In this document: one piece after another, positions 674-24,155 of the stretch
Position numbering within the stretch: the first letter of the stretch is position 1
Layout of the letters: every line of letters begins with the position of its first letter
Origin: Knoellia koreensis
GTDB lineage: Bacteria; Actinomycetota; Actinomycetes; Actinomycetales; Dermatophilaceae
Reading direction: 5' to 3'
DNA: 37,586 bases
Assembly: GCF_013041615.1 (NCBI RefSeq)
Contig: NZ_JABEPQ010000008.1
Coordinates: 1 to 37,586, forward strand
The notes under the pieces: model-generated
Seen by the model: only the letters and a program-made list of their open reading frames with translations
The model's database searches: none
What the model was told of the DNA's origin: nothing
Made by a program: the position numbers and the translations under genes

Positions 674-745
674 GCGTCTAGGTGAGAGGACCGAGCGCCA
701 ACTCGGTACCTCTCCGATCTGTAGCCGATCCCGTGCCAGGGAGGA

Positions 746-760
746 GGCGGCGTAGCCGCC
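746..760. repeat. Perfect hairpin with GTA loop in the rep leader
   Basis: GGCGGC (746-751), GTA, GCCGCC (755-760). It lies 25 bases before the Shine-Dalgarno GGAGG (785-789) of the putative rep gene. The minus-strand sequence resembles the first hairpin of the 114-nt element at 2097 (GCGGC TAC GCCGC). It may act in translational control of rep; that is inference. Confidence 0.4.
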
Positions 761-796
761 CGGCGGTTTTCACATGCCAGCGATGGAGGTCGCTTA

Positions 797-2005: not shown

Positions 2006-2096
2006 CGCGCCGACCATGAGCGGACCAAGACTTTCGAGCGGAAGGTCACCTCACGCCCTCCCCCTGACGTCCCACTCTGCGGCCACGGACCACCGC

Positions 2097-2210
2097 GTCA
2101 AGCGGCTACGCCGCCGGCTCCTCCGAGAACTTTCGGCACGCGCTCCGGTCGTTCCTCCCTCCGCTTATTTCGCGCCGAAACTTCTCTCCCCCACCGCCCT
2201 CCGGGTTGAC
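2097..2210 (+). other. 114-nt structured element, copy 1 (possible ssDNA origin or ncRNA)
   Basis: The element opens with GTCAAGC and closes with GGGTTGAC, so its ends can pair. Hairpin P1 is GCGGC-TAC-GCCGC (2102-2114). Stem P2 joins GAGAACTTTCGGC (2125-2137) to GCCGAAACTTCTC (2174-2186) with one C:C mismatch, extended by GCG/CGC beyond a 2-nt bulge, and encloses a pyrimidine-rich 28-nt loop. The 46 bases 2133-2178 are identical to the minus strand of 21398-21443, and 2196-2210 to the minus strand of 21367-21381. It lies in the 344-base gap between rep and the gene at 2350. No convincing gene is seen in this gap. Confidence 0.75.
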
Positions 2211-2217
2211 CCGGAGG
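2198..2217 (+). terminator. GC-rich hairpin at the end of element copy 1
   Basis: CCTCCGGGT (2198-2206) pairs perfectly with ACCCGGAGG (2209-2217). It overlaps the conserved tail of the 114-nt element. It could terminate rep transcription or an RNA made from the element. Confidence 0.4.
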
Positions 2218-2321
2218 CCCTTATGCGGCCGCGACGGGGACAAACGTCAGGGGGCGGGACGAAAAAACGGTCAGCGGCCAAGGCCAAGAGCACGGGGCCG
2301 AGTCAACCCGCCGCCCCACCT

Positions 2322-5238: not shown

Positions 5239-5643
5239 ATGAGCACCATCACCTTCGCCGGGAACCTGGCCGCCGACCCCGAGCTGCGATTCACCCCCAG
5301 CGGCCGCGGCGTCGCCCGCTTCACCGTCATCGAGAACCGCCGCCGGCGTACCGAGGACGGGCAGGGCTGGGAGGACGCCGAGCCCAACGTGTTCCGCGTC
5401 CAGGCTTGGGGATCGTTCGCTGAGAACGTCGTCGAGTCGTGCGGCAAGGGCGACCGCGTGCACGTCACCGGCAGCATCGTGACCGACCGGTGGTCGGACA
5501 AGGAGACGCGCGAGGACCGCACCGCGCAACACGTCAAGGCCGACGAGGTGTCGTTCAGCCTGCGCTACCACACCGTGCGAGCCACCAAGGCGACCCGGAG
5601 CAACAACCAGGCCCACGAGGCCGACGACACCCGCGAGGGCTGA
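5239..5643 (+). CDS. ssb: Single-stranded DNA-binding protein
   Basis: 134 residues. It starts MSTITFAGNLAADPELRFTP, the first strands of the bacterial SSB OB fold, followed by GVARFTVIENRRR, FRVQAWGSFAENVVESCGKG, RVHVTGSIVTDRW and the strand ending HVKADEVSFSLRY at about residues 95-112. The C-terminal tail is short and acidic (EADDTREG) and lacks the canonical DDxPF tip used to recruit partners. Plasmid SSBs coat transferred single strands and help replication in the recipient. AAGGAG lies upstream of the ATG, and a full promoter module drives the gene. Confidence 0.93.
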   Translation: MSTITFAGNLAADPELRFTPSGRGVARFTVIENRRRRTEDGQGWEDAEPNVFRVQAWGSFAENVVESCGKGDRVHVTGSIVTDRWSDKETREDRTAQHVKADEVSFSLRYHTVRATKATRSNNQAHEADDTREG

Positions 5644-8529: not shown

Positions 8530-8745
8530 ATGGAGACTCGTCAGCGCCGTCCACACAACCAGCTCAAGGACGCGATGAGGAAGTACCTGACCACCCTGGA
8601 CGGCGGACACGCATCCATCTCTGAGATCAAGGCCGCGATCGAGCCCGAGGTTGGTGTCGCCCCGGCCTCCTCCTACCGAAGCTCGCTCCAAGACGAGAGG
8701 TACTTCGAGCGCGTGTCTAGGGGCGTGTTCCGTCTCCGTGACTAA
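8530..8745 (+). CDS. Small HARE-HTH-like winged-helix protein, first gene of the R-M operon
   Basis: 71 residues from ATG 8530. After a basic N-terminus it has LKDAMRKYLTTLDGGHASI, SEIKAAIEPEVG, SSYRSSLQDERYFERVSRG and VFRLRD. Helices followed by a strand ending in GVFRL resemble the HARE-HTH (ASXL-like) winged helix often found with restriction and DNA-modification genes. It overlaps the methyltransferase start (GTGACTAA). It may be the controller of the operon or help recognise modified DNA. It is not a classical Xre-type C protein. The fold call is from pattern and moderately sure. Confidence 0.6.
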   Translation: METRQRRPHNQLKDAMRKYLTTLDGGHASISEIKAAIEPEVGVAPASSYRSSLQDERYFERVSRGVFRLRD

Positions 8746-10369
8746 ACTGCCCGTGAAACTCTCAGACATGCCCCCGCCCGAGACGATCGAGTCGCTCGTC
8801 GCCCTGGCCGTGGCCCTAGGAGCCGAGGACGCCGGCGGCTTCTCCGAACCTGAGGCGGCGCTTGCATCCGCTAGCGAACTCATGCACTCACCAGCCGATG
8901 TGAGGCACGTCCGCAGCCTCATTCGCGCCGGACTCGACCCCCTCGGGGACGCGTACTGCGCCATCCGCACGCCGGAGGACCGCCGATACCTCGGGCAGAC
9001 CTACACCCCGGCGGCGATCATCAAGGCCATGGTCGGCTGGGCCAGCGATCAGGGCGACCCGCAGCGGATCGTGGACCCAGGGGCAGGATCGGGCCGATAC
9101 TTGCTCGCTGCCGCCAGGAGATTCCCCAGAGCCGAGCTGCACGGTGCCGATATCGACCCGCTCGCCACAATCATGCTCCGAGCCAACATCGCTGCCAGTG
9201 GGCTGGGTGACCGGGCCACCGTGCACCTCGGTGACTACCGAGCCCTGACGCTTGAGAAGATCAACGCCCAGACGCTTTTCATCGGAAACCCGCCCTACGT
9301 CAGGCACCACCTCATCGATCCCGAGTGGAAGCAGTGGCTCCTCGCCACGGCTGCCCGCCGTGGCCTCGACGCGAGCGGCCTCGCGGGTCTGCACGTACAT
9401 TTCTTCCTCGCCACCGCCGAGCACGGCCAACCCGGCGACTACGGCGCGTTCATCACCTCCTCGGAGTGGCTGGACGTCAACTACGGCAAGCTTGTCCGCC
9501 AGCTCCTCCTTGACGGACTCGGCGGCGAGTCGCTGCATGTCCTGGCCCCGACTGCGGAACCGTTCGCGGACGCAACCACGACCGGCGCGATCACCTGCTT
9601 CAAGATGGGCCAGCCCACCGAGAAGATGAAGGTTCGGCGGGTCGAGACAGTCGCAGACCTCGGCCGGCTCGCCAAGGGCCGAGCTATCTCGCGCGAGCGG
9701 CTAGCCGAGACCAACCGCTGGTCGGTGCTCACGCGCGTGACGCCGAAGCTGCCCGAGGGGTACATCGAACTCGGTGAGCTGTGCCGGGTGCACCGCGGCG
9801 CAGTGACTGGCGCGAACGACGTGTGGGTTCAGCGCGGCCCGACGCCCAGTCTCCCCGACAGCGTGCTGTTCCCGACCGTCACCAAGGCCCGCGAGCTGTT
9901 TGGTGCTGGCAGTCGCCTCGACACCGTGGAGAGCCTTCGGAAGGTCGTCGACCTACCCGTCGACCTCGATGCGTTCGACGCCCTTGAACGTAGAGCGATC
10001 GAGAGGTTCCTTCGCGCGGCCAAGGCAAAGCGCGTCCACGAGGGTTACGTGGCCTCCGCCCGGAAGGCTTGGTGGAGCGTCGGGCTGCGCGAGGCCGCGC
10101 CCATCCTCGCGACCTACATGGCTCGTCGCCCGCCGGCGTTCGTCCGAAACGATGCCCAGGCCCGGCATATCAACATCGCCCACGGGCTGTACCCACGCGA
10201 GAGCATGACCGCCGCGCTCCTCGACAAGCTCGCGGCGCACCTGCGCTCCTCGGTCAGCCTGACCCAGGGGCGGACGTACGCCGGTGGTCTGGTCAAGTTT
10301 GAGCCGAAGGAGATGGAGCGCATCCCGGTCCCTAGCCTGGCGATGCTTGCCGAGGGAGCACTGGTTTGA
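8738..10369 (+). CDS. Type II DNA N6-adenine methyltransferase (gamma class, M.TaqI/Eco57I-like)
   Basis: 543 residues from GTG 8738, which overlaps the preceding stop; ATG 8768 is an alternative. Motif I is DPGAGSGR (residues 113-120), followed by the acidic loop GADIDPLA, and motif IV is NPPY (184-187), the signature of N6-adenine or N4-cytosine methylases. TYTPAAIIKAMV before motif I is the usual motif X. The C-terminal third (LTQGRTYAGGLVKFEPKE) resembles a TaqI-type target recognition domain. It protects host DNA from the endonuclease in the next gene, whose start overlaps its stop. The expected target is GTCGAC if it matches the XamI system. Confidence 0.88.
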   Translation: MTKLPVKLSDMPPPETIESLVALAVALGAEDAGGFSEPEAALASASELMHSPADVRHVRSLIRAGLDPLGDAYCAIRTPEDRRYLGQTYTPAAIIKAMVGWASDQGDPQRIVDPGAGSGRYLLAAARRFPRAELHGADIDPLATIMLRANIAASGLGDRATVHLGDYRALTLEKINAQTLFIGNPPYVRHHLIDPEWKQWLLATAARRGLDASGLAGLHVHFFLATAEHGQPGDYGAFITSSEWLDVNYGKLVRQLLLDGLGGESLHVLAPTAEPFADATTTGAITCFKMGQPTEKMKVRRVETVADLGRLAKGRAISRERLAETNRWSVLTRVTPKLPEGYIELGELCRVHRGAVTGANDVWVQRGPTPSLPDSVLFPTVTKARELFGAGSRLDTVESLRKVVDLPVDLDAFDALERRAIERFLRAAKAKRVHEGYVASARKAWWSVGLREAAPILATYMARRPPAFVRNDAQARHINIAHGLYPRESMTAALLDKLAAHLRSSVSLTQGRTYAGGLVKFEPKEMERIPVPSLAMLAEGALV

Positions 10370-11280
10370 CGAAGCCGCCACGATGGTCCGAGGACGAGCT
10401 TGATGTCGAAGCGACTGAGGCGATCCGCCTCTTCCGCGAGACTCGGATGCAAGAGCCGTTGGAGGCGTACCTCGACTTCTTCGACGAGTACCGCCAGCAC
10501 GTCGAGAACCTGATCGAAGGAACCGTCGACCTGACCGAGCTGAGCAACCAGGCCGTGGACTTACTGACTCAGCCCGAGCAGCTGACTGCCGTCCGCTACC
10601 TGGCGTCGCCCGCCATCAGTGAGGACGACCTCAAGGTCTTGGCTGAGGCAGTCCTGAGCACCGCCCGACTGCGCGCCGAGCCCGACATGGCCCGCCGTGT
10701 CATCGACACAGTGATGCTCGGTCTCGACCGCGAGCGCTTCCCGTGGGTAGCCGAGAACCGCGACCCCACCGAGGCCGAACGTGCCACTGCCGTGGTCTCG
10801 ACCGCAGCGCTGATCGCGACCCAGAAGGTACAGACCGCCCGCCGCAACGACTCAAAGAAGCTTCAGGAGCACGCCGTCGCCGAGATCCTCCTCGCCAACG
10901 GCTTCACCCAGGTCCCGCCGCGAACGATCACCAATGTGAGTCACTTCCCGGCACCCGGCGAGTTCTGCGGGGAGTCGTTGTTCGGCACACGGAAGGCCGA
11001 CCTCGTGATCCGTCTGTATGACGGTCGAGCCATGCCCACCGAGTGCAAGGTCAGCAACTCATCGACCAACTCGGTCAAGCGGCTGAACAACGATGCCGCC
11101 ATCAAGGCCGAGACTTGGCTCAAGGAGTACGGCACCCAAACATGCGTCCCCGCAGCCGTTCTCTCTGGCGTGTTCAAGATTCACAACCTCTTGGCCGCGC
11201 AGAACGACAAGGGACTCACGCTCTTCTGGGGGCACCGGCTAGAGGCGATGATCGAGTTCATCGATCGAACCAAGCCCTGA
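10366..11280 (+). CDS. XamI-family type II restriction endonuclease
   Basis: 304 residues from TTG 10366, overlapping the methylase stop (TTTGACG). The PD-(D/E)xK core reads KADLVIRL...PTECKVSNSS, giving D212, E226 and K228. Conserved blocks RFPWVAENRDPTEAERA, PGEFCGESLFGTRKADLV, NSSTNSVKRLNNDAA and KAETW fit the XamI family, whose founder recognises GTCGAC. Many GTCGAC sites remain in this plasmid, so it must be protected by the partner methylase. The weak TTG start and the last place in the operon would keep its level low. Downstream lies the insertion point of the transposon. Confidence 0.82.
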   Translation: MTKPPRWSEDELDVEATEAIRLFRETRMQEPLEAYLDFFDEYRQHVENLIEGTVDLTELSNQAVDLLTQPEQLTAVRYLASPAISEDDLKVLAEAVLSTARLRAEPDMARRVIDTVMLGLDRERFPWVAENRDPTEAERATAVVSTAALIATQKVQTARRNDSKKLQEHAVAEILLANGFTQVPPRTITNVSHFPAPGEFCGESLFGTRKADLVIRLYDGRAMPTECKVSNSSTNSVKRLNNDAAIKAETWLKEYGTQTCVPAAVLSGVFKIHNLLAAQNDKGLTLFWGHRLEAMIEFIDRTKP

Positions 11281-11435: not shown

Positions 11436-12254
11436 TTAGTTGACTCCGATGACGAGGGTGCTGGCGGCGGCTTCGACGACGTCGTTGGTGATGGTCTGCA
11501 GCTCGTTGATCTTCAGGACGCGTTCGATCTGGGGGAAGAGTCGCTCCAGGAGGCGGAAGTTGCCGCGGGTGATGCGGCTGATCGCGGCGATGGTCTGGGC
11601 GTCGGTGAAGTCGTCGGGGTTGAGGGTCTTGCCCAGGGAGCGCCAGTGGCGTTGGAGGACGAAGAGCATCTCGTCGGTGCTCAGGGGCCGGTACTGGTGG
11701 GCGAAGCCGACGCGGCTGTAGAACTGGGGGTAGTGGCTGAACTGCTTCTCCAGCCCGGGCATGCCGATGAGGATCAGGGCGATCTGGTCGCGGTCGTAGC
11801 GGTCCCGTAGGAGCTCGAGCGCGGTGGGGCTCAGGCGTTCGGACTCGTCGACGATGACGAGCTGGACGTAGTTGGTGGTGCGCCGGGTGCCCCACCGGTC
11901 CAAGGGGATGCGGTCGGGGGCTTCGACGTGCTGCTGGATGCAGATGCTGGTGCGCGTGATGATCCGGTCCAGGTCCTCGCGCAGCAGCCGCGGGGTGGTC
12001 AGGACCCCGGGGGTGTACAGGGCGGTGCGGTTCTTGGCCAGCGCGGCGTAGATCTTGGCGTCGTCATCGCAGCGCGGGCCCCAGTCGGTGAGCAGCTCGT
12101 GGGCTTGGTCCCAGTGGGCGTAGCGGCGTGCGGAGACGGTCTTGCCGACCCCGGCCGGCCCGAAGCACAGCCCGATGGTGCGCCCGCGCCGGACGGAGTC
12201 GGCGAACTCGGTGAAGCGGCGGTGCTCCTTGGTGACGATGAAGCGTTCGCTCAC
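11436..12254 (-). CDS. tniB: TnsC/TniB-like AAA+ transposition ATPase
   Basis: 272 residues from GTG 12254, which overlaps the TGA of the transposase (coupled). Walker A is GPAGVGKT (about residues 32-39) and Walker B is VIVDESERLS. The sensor region includes LILIGMPGLEKQFSHYPQF and SRVGFAHQYRPL. These are features of TnsC/TniB/MuB target-selection ATPases, which bind target DNA and activate the DDE transposase. The gene lies at the left end with only 26 bases between its stop codon and the inverted repeat. There is no tniQ/tnsD homologue beside it, so target choice would rest on this protein and the transposase alone. Confidence 0.88.
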   Translation of the reverse strand: MSERFIVTKEHRRFTEFADSVRRGRTIGLCFGPAGVGKTVSARRYAHWDQAHELLTDWGPRCDDDAKIYAALAKNRTALYTPGVLTTPRLLREDLDRIITRTSICIQQHVEAPDRIPLDRWGTRRTTNYVQLVIVDESERLSPTALELLRDRYDRDQIALILIGMPGLEKQFSHYPQFYSRVGFAHQYRPLSTDEMLFVLQRHWRSLGKTLNPDDFTDAQTIAAISRITRGNFRLLERLFPQIERVLKINELQTITNDVVEAAASTLVIGVN

Positions 12255-13654
12255 CTGAGGTCCTCCTTGTAGACCTTGAGCCGCGCCACGGTCGGCACGC
12301 GCGGCGGCACGGGCCTGGCAGGGGCGTCGGGGGTGTGGGCGGCGACGACGGCGATCCGCTCGTTGATGCCTCGGCGCAGGGCGCGGCGACGGGCGTTGCG
12401 GGCGGCCTGGACGTCCTTGAGGCTGATCTGCTTGGCGTGGTGTTCCTGATCGACGGCGGTGCACAGGAACTGGTCGTGGTCGAAGACGCGGATCTCGGTG
12501 ATGTCTCTGGGGTCGTAGCGGATGACCACGGGGCGGCCGACGAAGCCGGCGAGGGTCGGTGAGACGTAGCGCATGCCTTGGAAGTGGATGCCGTCGCGGC
12601 GCACCGTCCTGGATCGGGCCACGGTCAGCAGCAGCCCGTCCAGCGCCTGGAGGCTGTCGGGAAGGCGTGGCAGCCAGCCGTCGGCGATCCACGCCGACCG
12701 CGGCGAGACGCCGAGCTCGCCGTGGGCGCGGTCGTTGTAGTCCAGGACGAACGCCCCGACGGCGGCGTCGAGGTCAGCCAAGGACAGGGCTGGCGCGGGC
12801 CAGCGCTCCGCGCCGCTGTGGAGGTGTCCGGGCAGGGTGGTGAGCAGCTCGGTGTTGACCGTGCCGAAGAAGCGCTCGACCTTGCCTCGCCCTTGGGGTC
12901 GCGCGACGGCGGAGTGGATCAGGCGGATGTGCAGGTCGACGGCGGTGCGGGCCAGGTGGTCGCTGGTGAAGTCCGACCCGTGGTCGACGTACAACAGGTC
13001 GGGGATGCCGCACATCGGCCACCGGGGGTCGGCCTTGGGCCAGATCGCCTGCCGTAGCGCCAGGGCGGTGTGCATCGTTGACGGCGCACCGAAGAAGACC
13101 GTGTAGCCGCAGATCGCGCGGGAGCAGTCGTCCATCACGACGGTCAGCCACGGCCGGGCCGGCTTGCCGTCCGTGCCGACGAGCACGATGTCCAGCAAGG
13201 TGTGGTCGGCCTGCCACATCGCGTTGGGGCGGTCGGCCGTCCGCCGCAACGCGAGCTCGTACTTGTCCCGGTAGGAGCCTGCTCCCTCGAGGGCGAGGGT
13301 GACCATGCCGGGGTCCAGGGCGGTGATGATCGACCGGACGACGCCGTAGGACGGGACCGGCCACGCGGTGCCGGCGCAGACCTTCACCACCGTCCGGTGG
13401 ATCGCGGCGATCGGTGGGCGGGGCCGGGTCAGCCCGAGCCCTTCGATTAGCGCGATGAGGTCCGCCGGCAGGTGATGCCCGCCCGCGTCCGCCCGCGGCA
13501 CTCGGCCCAGGGCCGACAGGCCGCCGGCGCGGTAGCGGGCATGCCAGCGTTCCAGCGTGCGCACTCCCAGGCCGTGGTGACGGGCCAGCGCGGCGAGCGG
13601 GACCTGGTCCTCGACATGCAGCCGCAGGATCCGCCACCGCCCGTCCGCGTCCAC
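12251..13654 (-). CDS. tniA: TnsB/TniA-like DDE transposase (rve and Mu-type C-terminal domains)
   Basis: 467 residues from GTG 13654. An N-terminal HTH (VPLAALARHHGLGVRTLERW) is followed by the RNase H-like core. The DDE acids lie in WQADHTLLDI, YVDHGSDFTS and GRGKVERFFG. The C-terminal beta-barrel of Mu/TniA transposases follows (SRTVRRDGIHFQGMRYVSPT, PVVIRYDPRDITEIRVF). It cuts and joins the TGT...ACA ends. It begins 7 bases after the resolvase stop and overlaps tniB, so all three genes form one leftward operon. Length is a little shorter than Tn402 TniA (about 560 residues). Confidence 0.9.
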   Translation of the reverse strand: MDADGRWRILRLHVEDQVPLAALARHHGLGVRTLERWHARYRAGGLSALGRVPRADAGGHHLPADLIALIEGLGLTRPRPPIAAIHRTVVKVCAGTAWPVPSYGVVRSIITALDPGMVTLALEGAGSYRDKYELALRRTADRPNAMWQADHTLLDIVLVGTDGKPARPWLTVVMDDCSRAICGYTVFFGAPSTMHTALALRQAIWPKADPRWPMCGIPDLLYVDHGSDFTSDHLARTAVDLHIRLIHSAVARPQGRGKVERFFGTVNTELLTTLPGHLHSGAERWPAPALSLADLDAAVGAFVLDYNDRAHGELGVSPRSAWIADGWLPRLPDSLQALDGLLLTVARSRTVRRDGIHFQGMRYVSPTLAGFVGRPVVIRYDPRDITEIRVFDHDQFLCTAVDQEHHAKQISLKDVQAARNARRRALRRGINERIAVVAAHTPDAPARPVPPRVPTVARLKVYKEDLR

Positions 13655-14400: not shown

Positions 14401-14601
14401 AGATACGCCGCTAACGCGCCGCGACCGGGCCCTGGGGCCCACGTCCTGGACCTCTACCGCGGCTCCTTGGAACGCGGAGCGCTGCCGATCGCGGGTTTGA
14501 AGGCGCGCGCCCCGTCGCTCGGCGAGTCGGGCCGGACGCCCCCCGAGTGAATCGCTCTTCCGTCCGTCATGGTCGTCAGAACCGGACCTAGGCTGCTTCG
14601 C

Positions 14602-15216
14602 ATGACGCACCTGGTCTGGGACATGGACGGCACACTGCTCGACACCACGTCGGTGGTGCCTGACGCGTTCGTCGCGACGGTGCAAGAGCTGGGGGTTGCC
14701 GACGTCGACCGGGAAAAGGTCGTTGCGGCCTACTCCCTCGGCGTGCCGGAGGTGATGCTCGAGCACCTAGTCGGTCGGCCACTCAAGAACGGCGAGGTCG
14801 ACGCTTACTACGACCGACTGCACGCCAGCACCGTTACGGCCTATGCCGGTGTGCTCGAGACCCTCGCGGCGCTGCGTGCGCGGGATCTGCGGACGGTCAT
14901 CTTCACGGTCGCCAGCAGCCGTGCGGCGCGCATGCTGCTCGCCTCGGCCAGCATCGAGTACGACATCCTCATCGGTGGGGACCACGTGGCGTGGCCGAAG
15001 CCCGCCCCGGACGGCATCCTGGCCGCAGCGTCCCGGCTAGGAGTTGATGTAGCCGACATCGTGTACATCGGTGACGCGCCGACCGACTTGCGGACAGCCC
15101 GATCCGCCGGCGCACGCGGCGCAGCGGCGACCTGGGGCCACCTGTACCGGGCGGAGGAACCCGCCGACGCGCGGCTCGCTGCACCGATGGATGCGTTGGC
15201 CCTGCTCGAGACCTAG
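14602..15216 (+). CDS. HAD-superfamily hydrolase carried by the transposon
   Basis: 204 residues from ATG 14602. Motif I is WDMDGTLLD, motif II is in FTVASSR, motif III Lys is in WPKPAPDGI and motif IV is IGDAPTDLRTA. The helical cap lies between motifs I and II (about residues 18-85), as in phosphoglycolate-phosphatase-like subfamily IA enzymes. The substrate cannot be told. TAGGCT at 14589-14594 lies about 7 bases before the ATG and there is no ribosome binding site, so the mRNA may be leaderless. It sits inside the core transposon, an unusual passenger with no obvious resistance role. Confidence 0.85.
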   Translation: MTHLVWDMDGTLLDTTSVVPDAFVATVQELGVADVDREKVVAAYSLGVPEVMLEHLVGRPLKNGEVDAYYDRLHASTVTAYAGVLETLAALRARDLRTVIFTVASSRAARMLLASASIEYDILIGGDHVAWPKPAPDGILAAASRLGVDVADIVYIGDAPTDLRTARSAGARGAAATWGHLYRAEEPADARLAAPMDALALLET

Positions 15217-15266
15217 GAAGGGCGCTCCTGGTCATCGGCGTCACCTGACCGTGCCCGCCACTCAGC

Positions 15267-15291
15267 CCGCCCTACACCGGCGAAAGTCACA
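15267..15291 (-). repeat. Internal copy of the transposon end
   Basis: Read on the minus strand it begins TGTGACTTTCGCCGGTG, the same as the left end but for one base in 17, and 21 of 25 overall. It faces the left end, so 11385-15291 alone could be a complete 3.9-kb element. The bases after it (GCTTT) do not repeat the CCCGCCAGG border. Confidence 0.8.
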
Positions 15292-15349
15292 GCTTTGACC
15301 ATCCGGTCGCAGGTAAGAACCGTCGACCGCAGGTAGGGAGTGCAGGGAT

Positions 15350-15931
15350 GTGAGCGGCACAGACGCAACTACCCATCGTTCCCGCGTACCAATGTTGACT
15401 CTGTGGTGGGCGATGTTGCGCCTTGGTGCCGTCGCGTTCGGCGGGCTTGGCCCGACGCTGGCCTTGCTCGATCGCTCATTGGTCGCTAGACGGGGGTGGT
15501 TGACGTCGACCGATGTGCGGGACGCACTCACCTACACCAAGGCGCTTCCCGGCTCCACTGTCGTGCAGATTGTCACCTTCCTTGGCTGGCGGCTCGGTGG
15601 GGTGATGGGGGCACTAGTCGCTACCTTCGGGTTCCTCCTGCCTGCCGCAGTTCTGATGACGCTCGCAGCGGCCGGCGCCGCGGCACTGCCTGACGCGGCT
15701 TGGGTCGACGGAGCGCTGCTGGGTATGCAGGTCGCCGTTGTCGGTCTGCTCGGGCATTCGATGGTTGGGTTGTTGACCAAAGAGGCGCGCACGCTCGCCC
15801 TCGCCGCGGTCGCGGTGGCGGCGGCCGCCGGGGGGTTCTTCGTCAACCCTGCCATCGTCGTGGTGCTTGCCGGGCTGGTCGGGGTCATCGTCGACCGGGT
15901 GCGCCGATACCGGGGCGGCCACCGTGGTTGA
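15350..15931 (+). CDS. chrA1: Chromate transporter, N-terminal-type CHR protein
   Basis: 193 residues from GTG 15350 with TAGGGAG upstream. One CHR domain: LWWAMLRLGAVAFGGLGPTL near the start, the conserved loop YTKALPGSTVVQIVTFLGW, and six hydrophobic stretches ending AIVVVLAGLVGVIVDRV. Short-chain CHR proteins come as pairs that together replace the two halves of full-length ChrA, which exports chromate. Its stop overlaps the next GTG by 8 bases. The loop has PGS where PGP is usual. Confidence 0.88.
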   Translation: MSGTDATTHRSRVPMLTLWWAMLRLGAVAFGGLGPTLALLDRSLVARRGWLTSTDVRDALTYTKALPGSTVVQIVTFLGWRLGGVMGALVATFGFLLPAAVLMTLAAAGAAALPDAAWVDGALLGMQVAVVGLLGHSMVGLLTKEARTLALAAVAVAAAAGGFFVNPAIVVVLAGLVGVIVDRVRRYRGGHRG

Positions 15932-16442
15932 CCTGGTCGCCACGTTCCTTCTGATCGGTGCGCTGGCCTTCGGCGGTGGCCAGGCTGCGCTGCCACTGGT
16001 GGAGCGGCTCACGGTCGGGGTGCACGGTTGGCTGAGCCCGGGTGAGTTCGCGACAGCGGTCGGGCTTTCCTACGCAACTCCCGGTCCGGTGCTGATCATC
16101 GCTGCCTTCGTCGGATACGTGACCGCTGGGGTGGGCGGTGCGGCGGTCGCCACCGCTGCCGTGTTCGCTCTCCCGGTGCTCGCGGCGATCGGTGCTGCCA
16201 GCGCAGTGAATCGGTTGTCGCAGACGTGGTGGCTGCCTGCCTTCGGGCGCTATGCGGGTGCGGGCGCGATCGGTCTGCTCGTCGTCACGCTGACGTCACT
16301 CGCCCGCCCTGTCGCCGACATCAACCCGGGCCTTCTTGTCGGTTCCTTGTTCGTAGGGCTTGCCGCCCGCCGGGTACACCCACTGCTGCTCCTTGCTGGG
16401 GCTATCACCGCCGGGGCGATTACGGCTTCCCTTCTGAACTAA
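15924..16442 (+). CDS. chrA2: Chromate transporter, C-terminal-type CHR protein
   Basis: 172 residues from GTG 15924. VDLVATFLLIGALAFGGGQA, GLSYATPGPVLIIAAFVGY and later membrane spans (LVVTLTSLARPVADINPG, HPLLLLAGAITAGAITASL) are the second CHR half with the typical PGP loop. Overlap with the preceding gene implies a coupled heterodimer inserted in the membrane. This is an ordinary two-gene arrangement and does not require a frameshift explanation. Confidence 0.88.
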   Translation: MVDLVATFLLIGALAFGGGQAALPLVERLTVGVHGWLSPGEFATAVGLSYATPGPVLIIAAFVGYVTAGVGGAAVATAAVFALPVLAAIGAASAVNRLSQTWWLPAFGRYAGAGAIGLLVVTLTSLARPVADINPGLLVGSLFVGLAARRVHPLLLLAGAITAGAITASLLN

Positions 16443-16499
16443 TCGCCTTGCGGGCCTGGACCCAACCAGGCAAGCCGTGAATGTCGCGGGTGGGGCCGA

Positions 16500-16601
16500 T
16501 CAATTGCCAACCAGAACCAGCCCGAGCAGGGTTCCGGTGAGACTGACCGCGGCCATCGCGCCAGTATGAACAAGGGCGAGGAGCACGGTCGGTGGCTCCA
16601 C
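16500..16601 (-). CDS. Possible 33-residue single-span membrane peptide
   Basis: GTG at 16599-16601 opens a frame whose product is one hydrophobic span (TVLLALVHTGAMAAVSLTG, then TLLGLVLVGN) and ends at TGA 16500-16502. There is no ribosome binding site, and another stop lies just upstream in frame. It may be a small membrane peptide or the tail of a lost transporter gene. Nothing else is seen in 16443-16633. Confidence 0.2.
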   Translation of the reverse strand: MEPPTVLLALVHTGAMAAVSLTGTLLGLVLVGN

Positions 16602-16633
16602 GTATCAAGGCGGGGGCTGCGCGTTAGGTCCGG

Positions 16634-17008
16634 TCACGCCGACTGAGGAGCAGCGAGGTCGCCGCTGAACAGGGTGCGCAGGGCGCCCATTGCTTCCGAG
16701 CGGGCCTTGTAGTAGACCCACACGCCGCGCTTATCCCGGTCGACCAGGCCTGCGTCGTGCAAAACCTTCAGGTGGTGGCTGAGGGTCGACGGGGCCAGGT
16801 CGAAGCCCTCGGTCAGGTCGCACATCGCGCACGCCTCGCCGCCCTCGTGGGACAGGATCATCGACATCAGCCTCAGCCGAACCGGGTCGGCGAGCGCCTT
16901 GAGCATGCGGGAGACGCCCTCGGCCTGCTCGGGGCTGATCGGCTCGCGCGCTAGCGGCGTGCAGTACCTCAGGGCCGCGTTCCGGGTGGGCAGCAAGGAC
17001 ATCGACAT
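16634..17008 (-). CDS. ArsR/SmtB-family metal-sensing repressor
   Basis: 124 residues from ATG 17008, chosen because homologues begin near this point. LKALADPVRLRLMSMIL and TLSHHLKVLHDAGLVDRDKRGVWVYY are the winged-helix core of ArsR proteins. Cys60 and Cys63 (EACAMCDLTE) lie in the metal-binding helix, with Cys16 near the N-terminus (RYCTPLAREPISPEQAE). The pattern fits thiol-bound As(III), Cd(II) or Pb(II); which one cannot be told. It is transcribed away from the HMA/ATPase genes, with palindromes in the shared promoter region, as expected of an autorepressor released by metal. Confidence 0.88.
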   Translation of the reverse strand: MSMSLLPTRNAALRYCTPLAREPISPEQAEGVSRMLKALADPVRLRLMSMILSHEGGEACAMCDLTEGFDLAPSTLSHHLKVLHDAGLVDRDKRGVWVYYKARSEAMGALRTLFSGDLAAPQSA

Positions 17009-17011
17009 GCG

Positions 17012-17080
17012 TACATGTTGACATGTATCGAAGTCTGTGGCAATATTGTCGCTGAAGACTTCGATGACAGTCGAAGTCTG
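17012..17080 (+). promoter_or_regulatory. Operator/promoter region of the metal-resistance operon
   Basis: TACATG-TTGA-CATGTA (17012-17027) is a perfect dyad that contains TTGACA (17018-17023), a consensus -35 box; AATATT follows 18 bases later. ATCGAAGTCT (17028-17037), AGACTTCGAT (17055-17064) and TCGAAGTCT (17072-17080) form an inverted pair plus a third copy. These are likely repressor sites. Confidence 0.6.
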
Positions 17081-17107
17081 GAGGCTTCCCGACCAGGAGA
17101 TGTACCG

Positions 17108-17353
17108 ATGACCGTTCCCGCCCAGTTCTTCCGTTCGAAGTACCGCGCCATCGAGGGCGGTTGCGTGTCCTGCTCCGGGGACCTTGCGACCCTCGAGGCC
17201 CTGCCCGGGGTCAAAGAGGTGGACGCCCTGGCCTCCGGTCTGGTCCTCGTGACCCACGACGGCACCGTGAGCGATGACGCCGTGGTCCAGGCGGCCCAGA
17301 AGGTCGGGCTGCCGCTCGCCCCTGCCGGCCCCGCCCGCCCGGTACGCGTCTGA
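17108..17353 (+). CDS. Small heavy-metal-associated (HMA-like) protein
   Basis: 81 residues from ATG 17108 with AGGAGA (17095-17100) 7 bases upstream. It has a ferredoxin-like HMA layout: strand RSKYRAIEGG, the metal loop GCVSCSG with a CxxC pair, helix GDLATLEALPGVKEVD, then LASGLVLVTHDGTV and a second helix DDAVVQAAQKVG. It probably binds the metal and passes it to the P-type ATPase 49 bases downstream, which has no N-terminal HMA domain of its own. A split HMA and pump is thus likely. Confidence 0.8.
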   Translation: MTVPAQFFRSKYRAIEGGCVSCSGDLATLEALPGVKEVDALASGLVLVTHDGTVSDDAVVQAAQKVGLPLAPAGPARPVRV

Positions 17354-17402
17354 CGCTCCACCACTGCACCCAGCAAACCGATGAAGAGAAGGTAAGAACA
17401 AG

Positions 17403-19367
17403 ATGAGTGCTAGAGCGACGACGTCGCCACAGGTAGCAGCTCCGGTCGTGGTGCGGGCGGCCCGGCGCCGGTGGTGGCAGAACCCCGAGATGGTCACCCT
17501 GGCCGTCGCCGCGGTGCTGCTGGTGGCCGGGCTGGTGGTGGAGTGGACCATCCACTCCGAGCCGGTGGCCCTGGCCCTATTCTGGGGCGCGATCCTCATC
17601 GGCGGCGTCTACCCATTGCGCAGCGCGATCCGGGCGGTGCGCCACAAACGGCTGACCATCACCGTGCTGCTCGTGGTGGCGGCTATCGGCGCCATCGCGC
17701 TCGGGGTGATCGAGGAGGCGGCAGCGCTCGTCGTCATCTTCAGCCTCGTTGAGGCCATGGAGGCATACGCCACCGACAAGGCCCGAGGGTCCATCAGCGC
17801 CCTGATGGAGCTCACGCCCCCGACCGCCAACCGACTCAACGATGACGGGGCGACCAAGACCGTGGCGGTGGAGGAACTCCACCCCGGTGACGTCGTCATG
17901 GTGCGCCCCGGTGAGCGCCTACCCACCGACGGGATTGTGGTTGACGGTGCCTCGTGGGTGGACGCCAGCCCGGTGACCGGGGAGTCGGTACCGGTCGAGG
18001 CCACCGCGGGCACCGAGGTCTTCGGCGGCAGCCTCAACGGCAACGGGGTGCTCCGGGTGAAGGTCACCAAGGAGTATTACGACACCGTCCTGGCCCGGGT
18101 GATCGGGCAGGTCGAAGAGGCACAGGCCAACCGCAGCGGCGCCGAGCGGTTCGCGGACAAGTTCAGTGCCATCTACACCCCGGCGATGTTCGCCCTGGCC
18201 ATCGTCGTAGCCCTGGTCATGCCGCTGCTCGGCTTCGAGTGGCGCGAAGCGATCTACCGGGCGCTGGTCATCCTCGTGGTCTCGTGCTCGTGCGCCCTGG
18301 TCATCTCGGTGCCTGTCAGCGTGGTCACCGCTATCGCCCGGGGCGCCCGCGACGGCATCCTCATCAAGGGCGGCATCTACCTTGAGCGCCTGGCCGACAT
18401 CAAGGCCGTCGCCTTCGACAAGACCGGCACCCTCACCCGCGGCCGGCCCACTCTCGCTCAAGTGACGCCCCTCGACGGGATCAGCGAGGACGAGGCTCTG
18501 ACCCTTGCGGCGGCGGTCGAGACCGGTAGCGAGCACCCCATCGCGACCGCGATCGTGGCCGGTGCCCGCGACCGCGGGTTGACCATCCCGGCCGTCCAGG
18601 ATGCACGCGCCCTGCCAGGAGCCGGCATGGAAGCCACCCTCGACGGTCGCACCCTGCACATCGGCCGGCCCACCGACGAGGACCGGACTGACGGCACCGC
18701 AGGCCCGGCGCTGGCGCACGCCGAGGCGGAAGGATGCACGGCCGTGGTTCTTCGCGACGACACCCGACCCTTGGCCGTCGTGGCGGTGGCCGACCAGCTG
18801 CGCCCCGACGCCGAAAGCACCCTTACCGAGCTGCGCGACCTCGGAGTCGAGCGGGTCCTGATGCTCACCGGCGACAACGCCACCGTCGCCAGATCCACCG
18901 CGCAGGCCCTGGGGCTAGACGACTACCGCGCCGAGTTGCTCCCCGAGGACAAATCCGCCGCAATCCGTGAGCTGCGCGAGAAACACGGCGTGATCGCGAT
19001 GGTCGGCGACGGCGTCAACGACGCCCCCGCCCTGGCCAACGCCGACCTCGCCATCGCCATGGGTGCCGCCAGCACCGACGTCGCCCTAGAGACCGCCGAT
19101 GTCGCCCTCATGGCCGACGAGCTCGACCGGCTCCCGGCCGCCATCCGACTCTCGCGCCGCGCTCGGAACAACATCAAGATCAACATCGTCCTGAGCCTGA
19201 CCGTCGTGGCCGTCCTGATCGTCGCCGCCCTCGCCGGCTGGATGTCCCTGACCACCGGCCTGCTCCTCAACGAGGGCAGCGCGGCGCTGATCATCCTCAA
19301 CGGCCTGCGCATGCTCCGCCCCGGCCGCGGCGAGACCCGACGCGCCCGAACCTCGGTATCTGTCTAA
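17403..19367 (+). CDS. cadA: P1B-type heavy-metal ATPase (CadA-like) with a CSC motif
   Basis: 654 residues. It lacks N-terminal metal domains and starts directly with membrane helices (about 32-50, 56-75, 84-115). The actuator carries TGES (192-195), the phosphorylation site is DKTGTLT (Asp339), and GDGVNDAP forms the hinge. The sixth-helix metal motif, normally CPC in Cd/Zn/Pb pumps, reads SCSCALVIS (Cys295-Ser296-Cys297); the codon is TCG. HP of the SEHPIATAI block is present. It exports a soft metal, most likely Cd, Zn or Pb; As is not transported by this family. It is in one operon with the HMA protein and under the divergent ArsR-type repressor. Confidence 0.92.
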   Translation: MSARATTSPQVAAPVVVRAARRRWWQNPEMVTLAVAAVLLVAGLVVEWTIHSEPVALALFWGAILIGGVYPLRSAIRAVRHKRLTITVLLVVAAIGAIALGVIEEAAALVVIFSLVEAMEAYATDKARGSISALMELTPPTANRLNDDGATKTVAVEELHPGDVVMVRPGERLPTDGIVVDGASWVDASPVTGESVPVEATAGTEVFGGSLNGNGVLRVKVTKEYYDTVLARVIGQVEEAQANRSGAERFADKFSAIYTPAMFALAIVVALVMPLLGFEWREAIYRALVILVVSCSCALVISVPVSVVTAIARGARDGILIKGGIYLERLADIKAVAFDKTGTLTRGRPTLAQVTPLDGISEDEALTLAAAVETGSEHPIATAIVAGARDRGLTIPAVQDARALPGAGMEATLDGRTLHIGRPTDEDRTDGTAGPALAHAEAEGCTAVVLRDDTRPLAVVAVADQLRPDAESTLTELRDLGVERVLMLTGDNATVARSTAQALGLDDYRAELLPEDKSAAIRELREKHGVIAMVGDGVNDAPALANADLAIAMGAASTDVALETADVALMADELDRLPAAIRLSRRARNNIKINIVLSLTVVAVLIVAALAGWMSLTTGLLLNEGSAALIILNGLRMLRPGRGETRRARTSVSV

Positions 19368-21311: not shown

Positions 21312-21347
21312 GCCATTCCTTCCCCCTGACCCGATAAAGGCCCAAAA

Positions 21348-21498
21348 TACGACGGCCCGCCAGCCTGTCAACCCGGAGGGCTCGGAGGAGCAAAGTCTCG
21401 GCGCGAAATAAGCGGAGGGAGGAACGACCGGAGCGCGTGCCGAGAGTTTGCGGGGGAGAGGCCCACGTAGTGGGCTTGACAGGCTGGCGGCCGTCGTA
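21348..21498 (-). other. 114-nt structured element, copy 2, closed by a 24-bp stem
   Basis: On the minus strand, 21480 to 21367 is the second copy of the element at 2097. P1 is GCCCAC-TAC-GTGGGC (21475-21461). P2 arms are GCAAACTCTCGGC (21451-21439) and GCCGAGACTTTGC (21402-21390). The arms are prolonged outward: TACGACGGCC(C)GCCAGCCTG (21348-21366) pairs with 21481-21498, one base unpaired. On the minus strand ATTTT follows the closing stem, as in an intrinsic terminator. The element lies between convergent genes. Confidence 0.75.
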
Positions 21499-21515
21499 AC
21501 GATGGCGGCCGAGGG

Positions 21516-21854
21516 TCAGGTGGCAGGAGAACCGTCCGCCGCGTCAGCGGCCGCCGGTTGCGACCTGTTCGCGGCTTCGGACGGCGAGGACTTGCGCGCC
21601 GCCGGACGGCGGCGCACCCGCTGCTTCTTGTCGGGTTCATCGAGGCCAAGCTTGCGCAGCTCATCGGCTGACCAGCCATCAGAGAGGGCGGCGCGGTACG
21701 CCTTGACGTCGGCTGCCTCAGCTGCCGCAAGCTGCTCGCGCAGCTCGTCGAGTGACTGCCGCGCGGTGACCAGTTCGCGCACGGAGTTGATGCGGCTGTC
21801 CAGCAGCTTGCGTGCCTTGGTTTCAGTGGTTTGTGCGTCCAGTGTTGATGCCAT
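21516..21854 (-). CDS. Unknown protein next to the mobilisation genes
   Basis: 112 residues from ATG 21854. The N-terminal 60 residues are helical (SRINSVRELVTARQSLDELR and on to AAEAADVKAY), then GWSADELRKLGLDEPDKKQR, then a disordered basic and Ala/Ser-rich tail. It is divergent from mobC across a 205-base regulatory region. The segment SADELRKLGL resembles short DNA- or protein-binding repeats in plasmid accessory proteins. An accessory relaxosome role is possible, but I do not recognise the family. Confidence 0.6.
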   Translation of the reverse strand: MASTLDAQTTETKARKLLDSRINSVRELVTARQSLDELREQLAAAEAADVKAYRAALSDGWSADELRKLGLDEPDKKQRVRRRPAARKSSPSEAANRSQPAAADAADGSPAT

Positions 21855-21963
21855 GCCGCCAGCGTATCGCGCCCCTGTGGGCACCACGGCGTACCCGCTG
21901 GCGCGGGTCGGGCCGTCGCGTTGCTCGGCCAACCGTTCGGAGTCCGTGACAGAGCAAGCTATA

Positions 21964-22011
21964 CGATCCGGTGACCGGATCGGCTTGTTGGTCTACACTG
22001 GCGTTAGACCA
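21964..22011. promoter_or_regulatory. Two palindromes at the mob promoter, candidate operator/oriT
   Basis: CGATCCGGT-G-ACCGGATCG (21964-21982) is a perfect 9-bp-arm palindrome. TGGTCTA (21989-21995) and TAGACCA (22005-22011) form a second, exact dyad. GTGACC (21971-21976), 17 bases, TACACT (21994-21999) is a candidate promoter. This divergent region could hold the repressor site of the mob operon or part of oriT. Confidence 0.55.
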
Positions 22012-22059
22012 GTCCCCGCGTTGGGCGGGGGCGCTGCGCTGGGCAGGAGGTGACCCGCC

Positions 22060-22467
22060 GTGTCGGAGGACGCCGAGGGCCGCGAGCCAGGGCGCAGCGC
22101 CGCGCGTCGCCGCCGGGTCGAGGGTGGCCGTCATCACCGGCACGTGGTGCGGGTGACCCCGGAGGAGGAAGCGCAGCTCCTCGCCCTGGCTCTGCGCTAC
22201 CGGGTGAGCGTGCCAAAGTTGCTCGTTGACTCTGCACTCGCCGGTGGGAGCGAGGTGGCTGCCAGCAACGCGAGCGTGCGCCACGCGTTGATCACTGAAC
22301 TGTTCGGTCTGCACCGTCTGCTGGCGAACGTCGCCAACAACGTGAACCAGATGACGAAGGCGCTGCACGCCACCGGCGAGCTGCCCCCGCAGACGGGCGA
22401 AGTGCTGGCCGCTGCGCGACGAACGGCCGAGAAGATCGACGACGTGATCGACGGTCTGTCGTCATGA
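22060..22467 (+). CDS. mobC: MobC-like relaxosome protein
   Basis: 135 residues from GTG 22060 with AGGAGGTGA (22045-22053). The N-terminus is basic. VVRVTPEEEAQLLALALRYR and SVPKLLVDSAL form a ribbon-helix-helix-like part, and the C-terminal helix ELFGLHRLLANVANNVNQMT is the conserved core of MobC proteins. MobC helps open oriT DNA and positions the relaxase. The stop overlaps the relaxase ATG (ATGA). Confidence 0.9.
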   Translation: MSEDAEGREPGRSAARRRRVEGGRHHRHVVRVTPEEEAQLLALALRYRVSVPKLLVDSALAGGSEVAASNASVRHALITELFGLHRLLANVANNVNQMTKALHATGELPPQTGEVLAAARRTAEKIDDVIDGLSS

Positions 22468-24155
22468 TGCCGAACGTGGTGCGCGGTGAGCGGATGGGCG
22501 GCCTGATGGTCTACCTGACCGGTAAGGGCCGCCGCAACGAGCACACCGAGCCGCACCTGGTCGCTGGTGACTCCGCGATGATGGCGTGGCACGACGACAA
22601 CGAGTTGGGCCGTGACGATGCGCTGGCAATCGCGCGGCACTTGGATCGGCCCAGGCGTGCACACGACGTCGAAGTCAAGGGCGGCCACGTCTGGCACTGC
22701 TCGCTATCGCTGCGCGCGGAGGAAGGCCAGTTGACCGACGACAAGTGGCGCGAGCTGGCCGAGTCGTTCGTCGCCAAGATGGGCTTCGACGACGCCGAGG
22801 GAACGAAGGCCCCGACGAGGTGGGTCGCTGTCCGCCACGGACTGTCCAGCAACGGCAACGACCACGTGCACCTGGTGGTGAACCTGGTGCGCGAGGACGG
22901 CACGAAGGCCAGCATTCACAACGACCACGTGCGTGCACAGAAGGCCTGCCGCGAGCTGGAAGCCGAGCACGGGTTGCAGCGGCTCGAAGGCGACGAACGG
23001 GACCGGGCAAGCCGTGGCTACGACCCGGCCGAACGGGAGGCCGACGCTCGTCGACGCGCACGAGGCAAGTTCGAGGGTGCCCGCCGCGCGGGCACCGAGA
23101 AGCGCACCTGGTGGGGACTAGACACTGCCGAGCGCAACGCGCTGATCAACGCGCAGCGACGCGATGACGAACCGCGCTGGGCGCTGGCGCGGACGGTCCG
23201 CGCGTGCGCTACAGCGTCGGCCGACGAGGCCGAGTTCGTGCGCCGCATGCGCCGCCAAGGCGTGCTCGTGCGCGCCCGTTACGCCGAGGGTCGGCAGGAC
23301 GTCATCACCGGCTACAGTGTCGCGGCCAAGCCCGAGCCCGGAGAGCGGCCCATCTGGTACGGCGGGGGACACTTGGCGCGCGACCTGACGCTGCCACGTC
23401 TACGTGCGGAGTGGCCCGACACGGCCGAAGGTGCGATGAGCGCGGCGGCCGAATGGACGGCCGCCAAGCGCGGCCGCCGCCCGGTGTCACCAGGGCGGGA
23501 GATGCGCGAGCCGGACCCGGCCTTGTGGCGCGAGGTGGGTGCCGACTTGGAGCGGCTGCGTGAGCAGTTGCGGTCGGTCCCGATCGAGGACCGCGACACG
23601 TGGGCGCGGGTTGCGCGGCAGACGTCCGGGGCGTTCGCTGCGTGGTCCGCGCGGGTCGAGGAGACCCCCGGTCCGCTGGCCGCCACGTCGGACGCGCTGG
23701 CTCGGACGGCGGAGCTACGTCGTCGGCCAGTGCGCCCGGAGCGGGCACCGAAGGCGTCAGCCTCGGGTGCCGCGATGCTGCTCATCTCGGCCGCCAAGGG
23801 AGGACGCGGAGCGGTCGCCCAAGCGGTGATGCTGCGCCAGCTCGCGAACCTCGCCAAGGCGATCTACGACATGCATCGTGCCGACCAGGACGCGCGCCGA
23901 GCAGCGCAGATCGAGCGCGCCATCCGCGGTGACCTGGCCACGGTGTCGGCACGCCTGCCCGACCCCGGCCCGGTCGGTCACCCCGACACCAAGGCCGCCG
24001 AGGTGGTGCGTACTGCGCGGCAGGCTCAGGGCGGGCCGCAGCGCACGCCTGGTTCACCGGTGCCGAACCGGATCGAACCGCAGCGGCCGCGCACAGCGAC
24101 GGCCGCTGGCAGGTACGGCCCAGGCGCGGAGCGAGACCACGGAGTCGAGCGGTAA
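22464..24155 (+). CDS. mobA: MOBP-type relaxase
   Basis: 563 residues from ATG 22464. The first 150 residues hold the relaxase domain: GGLMVYLTGKGRRNEHTEPH with likely catalytic Tyr17, WHCSLSL, and the metal site HGLSSNGNDHVHLVV (His125, His134, His136). The remaining 400 residues are charged and largely helical and include RADYRW-free linker regions and PPVSPGREMREPDP-like segments without a known domain. It nicks oriT, binds the 5' end and is exported with the strand. No helicase or primase domain is evident, so host helicase or SSB would be needed. Confidence 0.9.
   Translation: MMPNVVRGERMGGLMVYLTGKGRRNEHTEPHLVAGDSAMMAWHDDNELGRDDALAIARHLDRPRRAHDVEVKGGHVWHCSLSLRAEEGQLTDDKWRELAESFVAKMGFDDAEGTKAPTRWVAVRHGLSSNGNDHVHLVVNLVREDGTKASIHNDHVRAQKACRELEAEHGLQRLEGDERDRASRGYDPAEREADARRRARGKFEGARRAGTEKRTWWGLDTAERNALINAQRRDDEPRWALARTVRACATASADEAEFVRRMRRQGVLVRARYAEGRQDVITGYSVAAKPEPGERPIWYGGGHLARDLTLPRLRAEWPDTAEGAMSAAAEWTAAKRGRRPVSPGREMREPDPALWREVGADLERLREQLRSVPIEDRDTWARVARQTSGAFAAWSARVEETPGPLAATSDALARTAELRRRPVRPERAPKASASGAAMLLISAAKGGRGAVAQAVMLRQLANLAKAIYDMHRADQDARRAAQIERAIRGDLATVSARLPDPGPVGHPDTKAAEVVRTARQAQGGPQRTPGSPVPNRIEPQRPRTATAAGRYGPGAERDHGVER

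Follow-up and report, generated by a model that had tools for sequence, protein, structure and literature searches.

Two copies of a folded non-coding element, found in a 37,586-nt stretch of DNA from Knoellia koreensis (hereafter the window), belong to a new family of actinobacterial plasmid elements that are probably single-stranded DNA (ssDNA) promoters. In the sequences compared, the elements fold on the strand opposite to the neighboring genes, carry a promoter-like motif on one arm of that fold, and mostly stand ahead of codirectional genes. The family itself is well supported, and its role as a promoter is what we infer from this arrangement. We put at roughly 0.8 the probability that the element resembles Frpo of F and ssi of ColIb-P9 and lets the entering strand express establishment genes, a mechanism known chiefly from plasmids of gut bacteria.

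Two inverted copies of the element in K. koreensis

The first-pass annotation of the window, made from the sequence alone, had described two repeats of equal length (114 nt each) on opposite strands, at 2097-2210 (plus) and 21480-21367 (minus), here called copies A and B. This description held up. The identity between the copies consists of a 46-base block and a 15-base tail, their P2 arms differ by three changes that are each matched by a change in the opposite arm with the C:C mismatch retained, and GTCAA pairs with TTGAC in both. Because the family to which they belong covaries in 95 and 41 distinct sequences (see below), the resemblance of A and B is not due to chance. The element exceeds 114 nt, predicted pairing extending over about 208 nt in A and about 201 nt in B (Table 1). 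A DNA search of the 4.28-Mb K. koreensis genome (E ≤ 0.001) returned no places besides these two.

Copy A had been placed beside rep and copy B beside mob. The second assignment was confirmed by the MobC/NikA-like protein and the relaxase encoded near copy B, while the first was not: the gene at 797-2005 resembles HTH_36 only weakly (E = 0.00073, below the cut-off) and has no NCBIfam match. Downstream of copy A, the order is the 126-amino-acid open reading frame (ORF), further ORFs, and the SSB gene. The Yimella relative (L006) carries a toprim-domain gene.

Table 1. Positions of the two copies and of associated features in the window
Feature	Position	Strand	Remark
Copy A, conserved core	2097..2210	- (folded strand; downstream genes on plus)	R1 match, 97.2 bits
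Copy A, full fold with outer arms	2054..2261	-	Predicted DNA fold -65.5 kcal/mol, z -5.70
Copy A, -35-like box TTGACG	2096..2101	-	3' arm of the folded strand
Copy A, -10-like box CAGAGT	2074..2079	-	16 nt after the -35
Copy A, predicted RNA start (approximate)	2236..2250	+	Inferred from spacing/arm geometry
First codirectional ORF 3' of copy A, 126 aa	2350..2730	+	Protein with similar start follows the Yimella copy (L006)
SSB gene	5239..5643	+	Downstream of copy A
Copy B, conserved core, inverted relative to A	21367..21480	+ (canonical folded strand)	R1 match, 65.1 bits
Copy B, full folded element	21323..21523	Either strand	z -7.31 (plus), -6.55 (minus)
Copy B, canonical-arm -35-like TTGACA	21476..21481	+	
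Copy B, canonical-arm -10-like AACGAT	21498..21503	+	16 nt after the -35
Copy B, second -35-like TTGACA	21366..21371	-	Other arm
Copy B, second -10-like TATTTT	21344..21349	-	16 nt after the second -35; 10/12 consensus matches
Inverted repeat 5' of mobC, candidate part of oriT	21964..21982		Stretch clearly similar in 6/9 plasmids
MobC/NikA-like protein	22060..22467	+	E 9.7e-05 and 4.5e-04, both under curated cut-offs
MobA/VirD2-type relaxase	22464..24155	+	

Distribution of the family

By blastn, the element was found at 83 places in 60 of 72,556 plasmid records, the commonest genera being Clavibacter (22 records), Curtobacterium (17), and Microbacterium (5). None of 50,697 phage records matched at E ≤ 0.001, on which ground a phage origin was rejected. 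No annotated feature lies under the best place in any of the 60 plasmid records, for which the PLSDB gene tables are incomplete. ORFs overlap the element by chance in GC-rich DNA; the covariation described below and core lengths of 86 to 113 nt among full-length matches argue against a protein-coding sequence.

Within the window's own family, 10 of 186 genomes were matched by DNA search, two of them by short pieces only. An alignment was made of 17 copies, taken from the window and 11 plasmids (12 records), and 15 of these copies, in the orientation opposite to the genes, served to build a covariance model named R1. With stricter filters, applied at the cost of weak matches, R1 hits were obtained in 14 of 396 genomes at the level of the order. 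By family, the figures were 44 of 398 sampled genomes for f19, a related family, 14 of 221 for f9, and 3 of 47 for f12. A class-wide sample of 296 genomes gave 2, both from the window's own family. The maximum was seven matches in one genome and six on one contig. As far as sampled, the element looks limited to one order.

A pattern scan of GTDB contigs returned 53 stretches. Microbacteriaceae account for many of them; Mobilicoccus, Intrasporangium, and Arthrobacter are also represented, and a few stretches come from metagenome-assembled genomes (MAGs) labeled Propionibacteriaceae, Planctomycetota, and Deinococci. Two MAG contigs labeled Planctomycetota and Deinococci (L070 and L076) carry typical elements, and the start of the protein downstream of the element on L070 exactly equals that of a protein on a Microcella contig (L059). 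Such bins may hold stray actinobacterial plasmids.

The fold covaries on the strand opposite to the genes

As a check on its view that selection acts on a folded single strand, the first-pass annotation had proposed a covariance model, a search of plasmids, and a count of covarying pairs. In the first set of R1 matches (set 1; 113 matches, 95 distinct), 97.0% of the cells pair, compared with 84.4% in shuffles and 39 to 47% when partners are slid by 1 to 3 columns. Double-sided changes occur in 28 of the 29 pairs and involve 239 cells, against 33.1 in shuffles. Similarly, in 48 matches (41 distinct) from 41 loci outside the construction of R1 (set 2), 96.1% of the cells pair (72.1% shuffled), and all 29 pairs show double-sided changes (235 versus 66 cells); 5 of these 48 rows share their core with a set 1 row and none equals a model sequence. 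Both alignments are fitted to R1; in an unfitted MAFFT alignment of 17 gene-strand copies, compensated changes were found in 13 of 28 predicted pairs. The outer arms also match their own partner best, with a longest run of 13.3 compared with 8.8 for the arms of other elements and 7.4 after shuffling.

The wobble pairs indicate which strand folds. Read on the strand opposite to the genes, the non-Watson-Crick cells of set 1 comprise 158 G.T, 10 A.C, and 72 others, and 41 G.T versus 10 A.C remain when two G.T-rich pairs are left out; set 2 gives 64 G.T versus 7 A.C. Such an excess of G.T is not what a fold selected in duplex DNA or in the gene strand would show, and the folded strand is therefore the one opposite to the genes. 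Covariation and this strand bias together bear out the proposed selection on a folded single strand. Energies agree in direction: the consensus fold of the unfitted alignment (17 copies, DNA parameters) scores -17.0 for the opposite strand and -11.2 for the gene strand, and the DNA energy is lower on the opposite strand in 39 of 39 elements. This advantage is partly due to composition, but in copy A the shuffle z score still favors the folded strand (-5.70 versus -3.44 for the plus strand, which folds at -52.6 kcal/mol over 2054..2261). Overall, sequence comparison strongly supports a fold on the strand opposite to the genes.

A structured RNA had been named as the main alternative. Read in the gene direction, such an RNA is disfavored by the strand test, and no Rfam family points to it: searches of Rfam 15 gave no family matching the element, even at E ≤ 1 on the two stretches, and a known RNA family was rejected on that basis.

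A promoter-like motif on the 3' arm

On the 3' arm of the folded strand, reading outward from the core, TTGnnn is followed after 15 to 18 nt by a -10-like nAnnnT, such as TATGCT, TACGAT, TAGAAT, or CATGAT. TANNNT is the usual actinobacterial -10. We take the conserved A and T of nAnnnT to be promoter positions -11 and -7, whose bases are captured by sigma in single-stranded form as the promoter opens. The motif was first spotted by eye in 17 copies of 12 records, with a spacing of 15 to 17, and the range of 15 to 18 was fixed after the flanks of a larger set had been listed. It is present in 38 of 45 flanks that are less than 85% alike (shuffled mean, 4.1; maximum, 12 of 2000). The spacing is exactly 16 nt in 30 of these 38, and the stricter TAnnnT occurs in 18 (shuffled mean, 0.4). 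Among flanks outside the 12 discovery records and less than 80% alike, 31 of 35 carry the motif (shuffled mean, 2.9; maximum, 9), including 10 of the 13 that had never been displayed before the test. Without de-duplication, it is found in 89 of 111 flanks and absent from 22; a subgroup of elements has TACGAG or TACGAC in place of nAnnnT.

The gene-side arm behaves differently. A correctly spaced -10 was found there in just 1 of 50 flanks in the first comparison, that one being copy B of the window, and in 0 of 52 in the second; before de-duplication, copy B is the sole case among 110. A conventional double-strand promoter in the gene direction was rejected on these counts and on a strict consensus scan that found none in 2000-2400, a scan that misses copy A's own -35- and -10-like boxes as well.

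We then turned to predicted pairing in 35 elements with the motif. The pairing probability is 0.78 at the -35 and 0.74 just before the -10; it falls to 0.27 for the conserved A and 0.59 for the T, and reaches 0.84 in the stem that follows. The A is less paired than the preceding stem (Wilcoxon, 9e-8, 35 elements) and less paired than other A's of the arm (0.53; p = 3e-4). In copy A, the first A of CAGAGT is unpaired in the predicted fold. A bubble at the -10 is thus predicted by the folding model. Some copies excepted, motif and predicted pairing together agree with what is expected of an ssDNA promoter, namely that folding rebuilds a -35/-10 directed toward the genes.

Elements stand at the heads of codirectional leading-type genes

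Downstream genes were called by tblastn with 25 annotated proteins. By this count, which is partly circular in that most of the 25 references are genes near the elements of the first plasmids and in which near-identical flanks were retained, 79 of 110 downstream flanks (31 of 110 unassigned) have the start of a codirectional leading-type gene no more than 330 nt away (median, 80 nt), compared with 0 of 107 upstream flanks. The 79 genes encode ArdC-like proteins (33), glutaredoxin/NrdH (14), hypothetical proteins (12), ParB (9), DUF3846 proteins (5), and others (6). In 12 annotated plasmids, 5 of whose records were covered over 50,000 bases each, 17 of 18 R1 matches (E ≤ 0.1) lie 56 to 153 nt before a codirectional coding sequence; at the exception (L013, 40905), an integrase and other genes are inserted downstream.

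With the position of oriT taken as 5' of mobC or the relaxase gene, the gene direction leads to the 5' side of relaxase/mobC before any T4SS gene in 11 of 11 plasmids that have such an annotated gene, copy A of the window included (L008 and L012, which have neither, were left out). Since the relaxase typically marks the lagging region, as described in PMC11541004, genes that read toward its 5' side have the layout of a leading region. Furthermore, all copies are co-oriented in 30 of 33 contigs with at least two R1 matches, the mixed contigs being the window, G1086:C3, and G1378:C6.

Weaker matches were noted in a few places. A Mycetocola plasmid (L011) holds degenerate copies at 14882-14954 (E = 0.023), 16072-16141 (E = 0.59), and 19019-19113 (E = 0.0025), directly 5' of DUF3846, DprA, and ParB genes. 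Sub-threshold R1 matches lie just 5' of a gene in L007 (22430-22492; 14.6 bits, E = 2.9) and in the window (703-762; 15.5 bits, E = 1.9); the latter is on the strand opposite to expectation and may be due to chance.

Relationship to known single-strand elements

Frpo of the F plasmid folds when single-stranded, reconstitutes a -10 and a -35, and is needed for early expression of leading genes (PMC9849209, PMC7690428). Like Frpo1 and Frpo2 of F and ssi of ColIb-P9, as these are described in PMC9849209, the element is non-coding, folds on one strand with a -35/-10 in the fold, stands 5' of ssb- or antirestriction-type genes, and occurs in more than one copy per plasmid. In F Frpo, too, the strand opposite to the genes folds better. 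The element is about 208 nt long compared with the 328 given for Frpo (PMC7690428), and unlike Frpo/ssi, it has a compact branched covarying core, actinobacterial hosts, and a -10 reduced to nAnnnT. At E ≤ 10, R1 matched nothing in the leading region of F, which suggests that the element is not a sequence member of Frpo, as far as tested on that region. The resemblance to Frpo appears to be one of anatomy; a simple scan of F Frpo1/2 did not recover clear -35/-10 boxes.

Orientation-specific folded ssDNA is also a property of the sso of Gram-positive rolling-circle plasmids and of sso1 of ICEBs1, and for many sso, RNA polymerase is described as recognizing a promoter there from which a primer is made (PMC4595007). 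Those sequences prime replication, whereas the present element recurs at the heads of establishment genes on plasmids with a relaxase and a T4SS. In Gram-positive plasmids of the pLS20 family, several establishment operons are likewise accompanied by conserved non-coding sequences, the EGeRS (PMC8708921). Their authors judged an ssDNA promoter highly unlikely, the transferred strand being non-template (PMC8708921), while for our element the strand and promoter evidence favors one.

In the literature cited here, the tested ssDNA promoters are those of F and ColIb-P9, and two recent surveys proceeded by BLAST from known or putative Frpo/ssi or by a consensus in four islands (PMC11541004, PMC12826799). 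Surveys based on BLAST or on a -35/-10 consensus would probably miss the actinobacterial family. A literature search of open-licence titles and abstract starts returned no report of an actinobacterial Frpo-like promoter. The text of PMC11541004 does not contain "Actinomycet", "Actinobac", or "Rhodococcus", and that of PMC12826799 does not contain "Actino". However, an Extended Data figure of PMC11541004 assigns one anti-defense island to Streptomyces, with a legend that explains an arrow as Frpo promoters, and we therefore make no claim to a first case in the phylum.

A model for expression from the entering strand

We propose the following sequence of events. In the double-stranded plasmid, the -35/-10 would face away from the genes. 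During conjugation, the transferred strand would enter the recipient single-stranded and fold back on itself, the conserved core closing a long hairpin. Folding would make the TTGnnn (-35) and its spacer double-stranded and would leave the -10 (nAnnnT) of the 3' arm in a bubble of mismatches, where its A (-11) stays mostly unpaired. This pre-opened promoter would be bound by the host's RNA polymerase carrying the primary sigma factor. Transcription would then cover the 5' portion of the strand, which serves as template for establishment genes such as those for ArdC-like proteins, SSB, ParB, and glutaredoxin. Establishment proteins would be made before the second strand exists, and the RNA could also prime that strand. 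In this scheme, polymerase binding, transcription, and the RNA start are deduced from the layout, and the direction of the genes suggests that the folded strand is the transferred one.

Priming deserves attention as a function of its own, since the sso of many Gram-positive rolling-circle plasmids (PMC4595007) and Frpo (PMC7690428) are described as folds on which RNA polymerase makes primers. The element might recruit RNA polymerase or a primase solely to prime the second strand, with no role in expression, and the absence of a recognized gene after copy B would suit such a site. Priming alone, however, calls neither for as many as seven matches per genome and six per contig nor for a position some 80 nt ahead of start codons in the orientation of the genes, and we consider this explanation unlikely. 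RSF1010 ssiA and ssiB are single-strand initiation hairpins near the mobilization genes that act as opposed primase sites, and the first-pass annotation had compared the repeats to them. RSF1010 is listed among the ssi-bearing plasmids in PMC7690428. Single-strand initiation signals are supported as the relevant class, and the opposed orientation of A and B stands for this window; as a general rule, a pair recognized by a plasmid primase was rejected on co-orientation (30 of the 33 multi-copy contigs) and on the placement of copies upstream of genes, and we give it hardly any credence. Unlike ssiA/ssiB, the copies are mostly co-oriented, promoter-like, and gene-linked. Standing at the heads of codirectional establishment genes with a -35/-10 on the folded strand, they have the layout of promoters rather than of a primase-site pair.

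Two explanations invoke RNA. If the strand opposite to the genes gave rise to a structured antisense RNA, the G.T wobbles would fit equally well, but the conserved promoter-like motif carried by that strand is directed away from the element and would leave it untranscribed, and Rfam offers no matching family; such an RNA is very improbable. A cis-acting 5' leader RNA of the establishment genes would account for the near-constant location before start codons and would be placed like the pLS20 EGeRS, conserved sequences before establishment genes on a plasmid whose transferred strand is reported to be non-template (PMC8708921). As the gene strand would bear A.C mismatches where the other strand has G.T, and the -35/-10 and the bubble would be left without a role, we regard a leader as more improbable still. 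Finally, outward transcription from double-stranded DNA may occur, but as the sole function it leaves the fold and the gene linkage unexplained.

If the element is an ssDNA promoter, it would belong with the devices that arm a plasmid against restriction and other defenses before the double-stranded stage. Being defined by covariation and a motif, the family would offer a covariance-model route to ssDNA promoters in other groups. It would also yield a map of actinobacterial establishment genes and provide a natural pre-melted promoter for testing the role of the -11 A. The conserved branched core holds a purine-rich, strongly conserved internal loop. Tentatively, and with more doubt than conviction, we imagine that one actinobacterial order has an ssDNA promoter system of its own without sequence relationship to Frpo. 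Its branched core would be a dedicated docking fold for RNA polymerase or a factor, the arms would hold a pre-melted -10 with the -11 A free, and copy B, with -35/-10 boxes on both arms, could fire from either single strand beside oriT.

Copy B, the mobilization region, and other genes of the window

Copy A fits the reading as a single-strand promoter, whereas copy B does not fit the leading-gene position. The latter has the 3' end of a resolvase gene (20658-21311) on one side and that of a minus-strand ORF (21516-21932) on the other, with no recognized gene after it in the window, and its stem is prolonged by inverted flanks beyond the TTGACA boxes. It could prime, transcribe, or be a displaced copy. 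Among 15 of 17 plasmid records similar to 21300-22500, only that of Janibacter matches the copy B part; on the Janibacter plasmid, unlike in the window, the element stands before leading genes.

Upstream of mobC, a search for nic motifs yielded no usable site. The segment 21932-22060 contains GAGCAAGCTA, an inverted repeat, and a GCTTG-like block, an arrangement that is clear in 6 of 9 plasmids compared and makes this segment a candidate actinobacterial oriT. The run of genes between copy A and mobC includes genes for an Eco57I-type/N6 methylase and, after it, a XamI-type restriction endonuclease (8651-11280). It further includes, at 11436-13654 and 14569-19367, genes for a Mu-type transposase and an AAA ATPase, a chromate transporter, an ArsR-type regulator, and a P-type ATPase, which together look like a mobile metal-resistance-like cargo.
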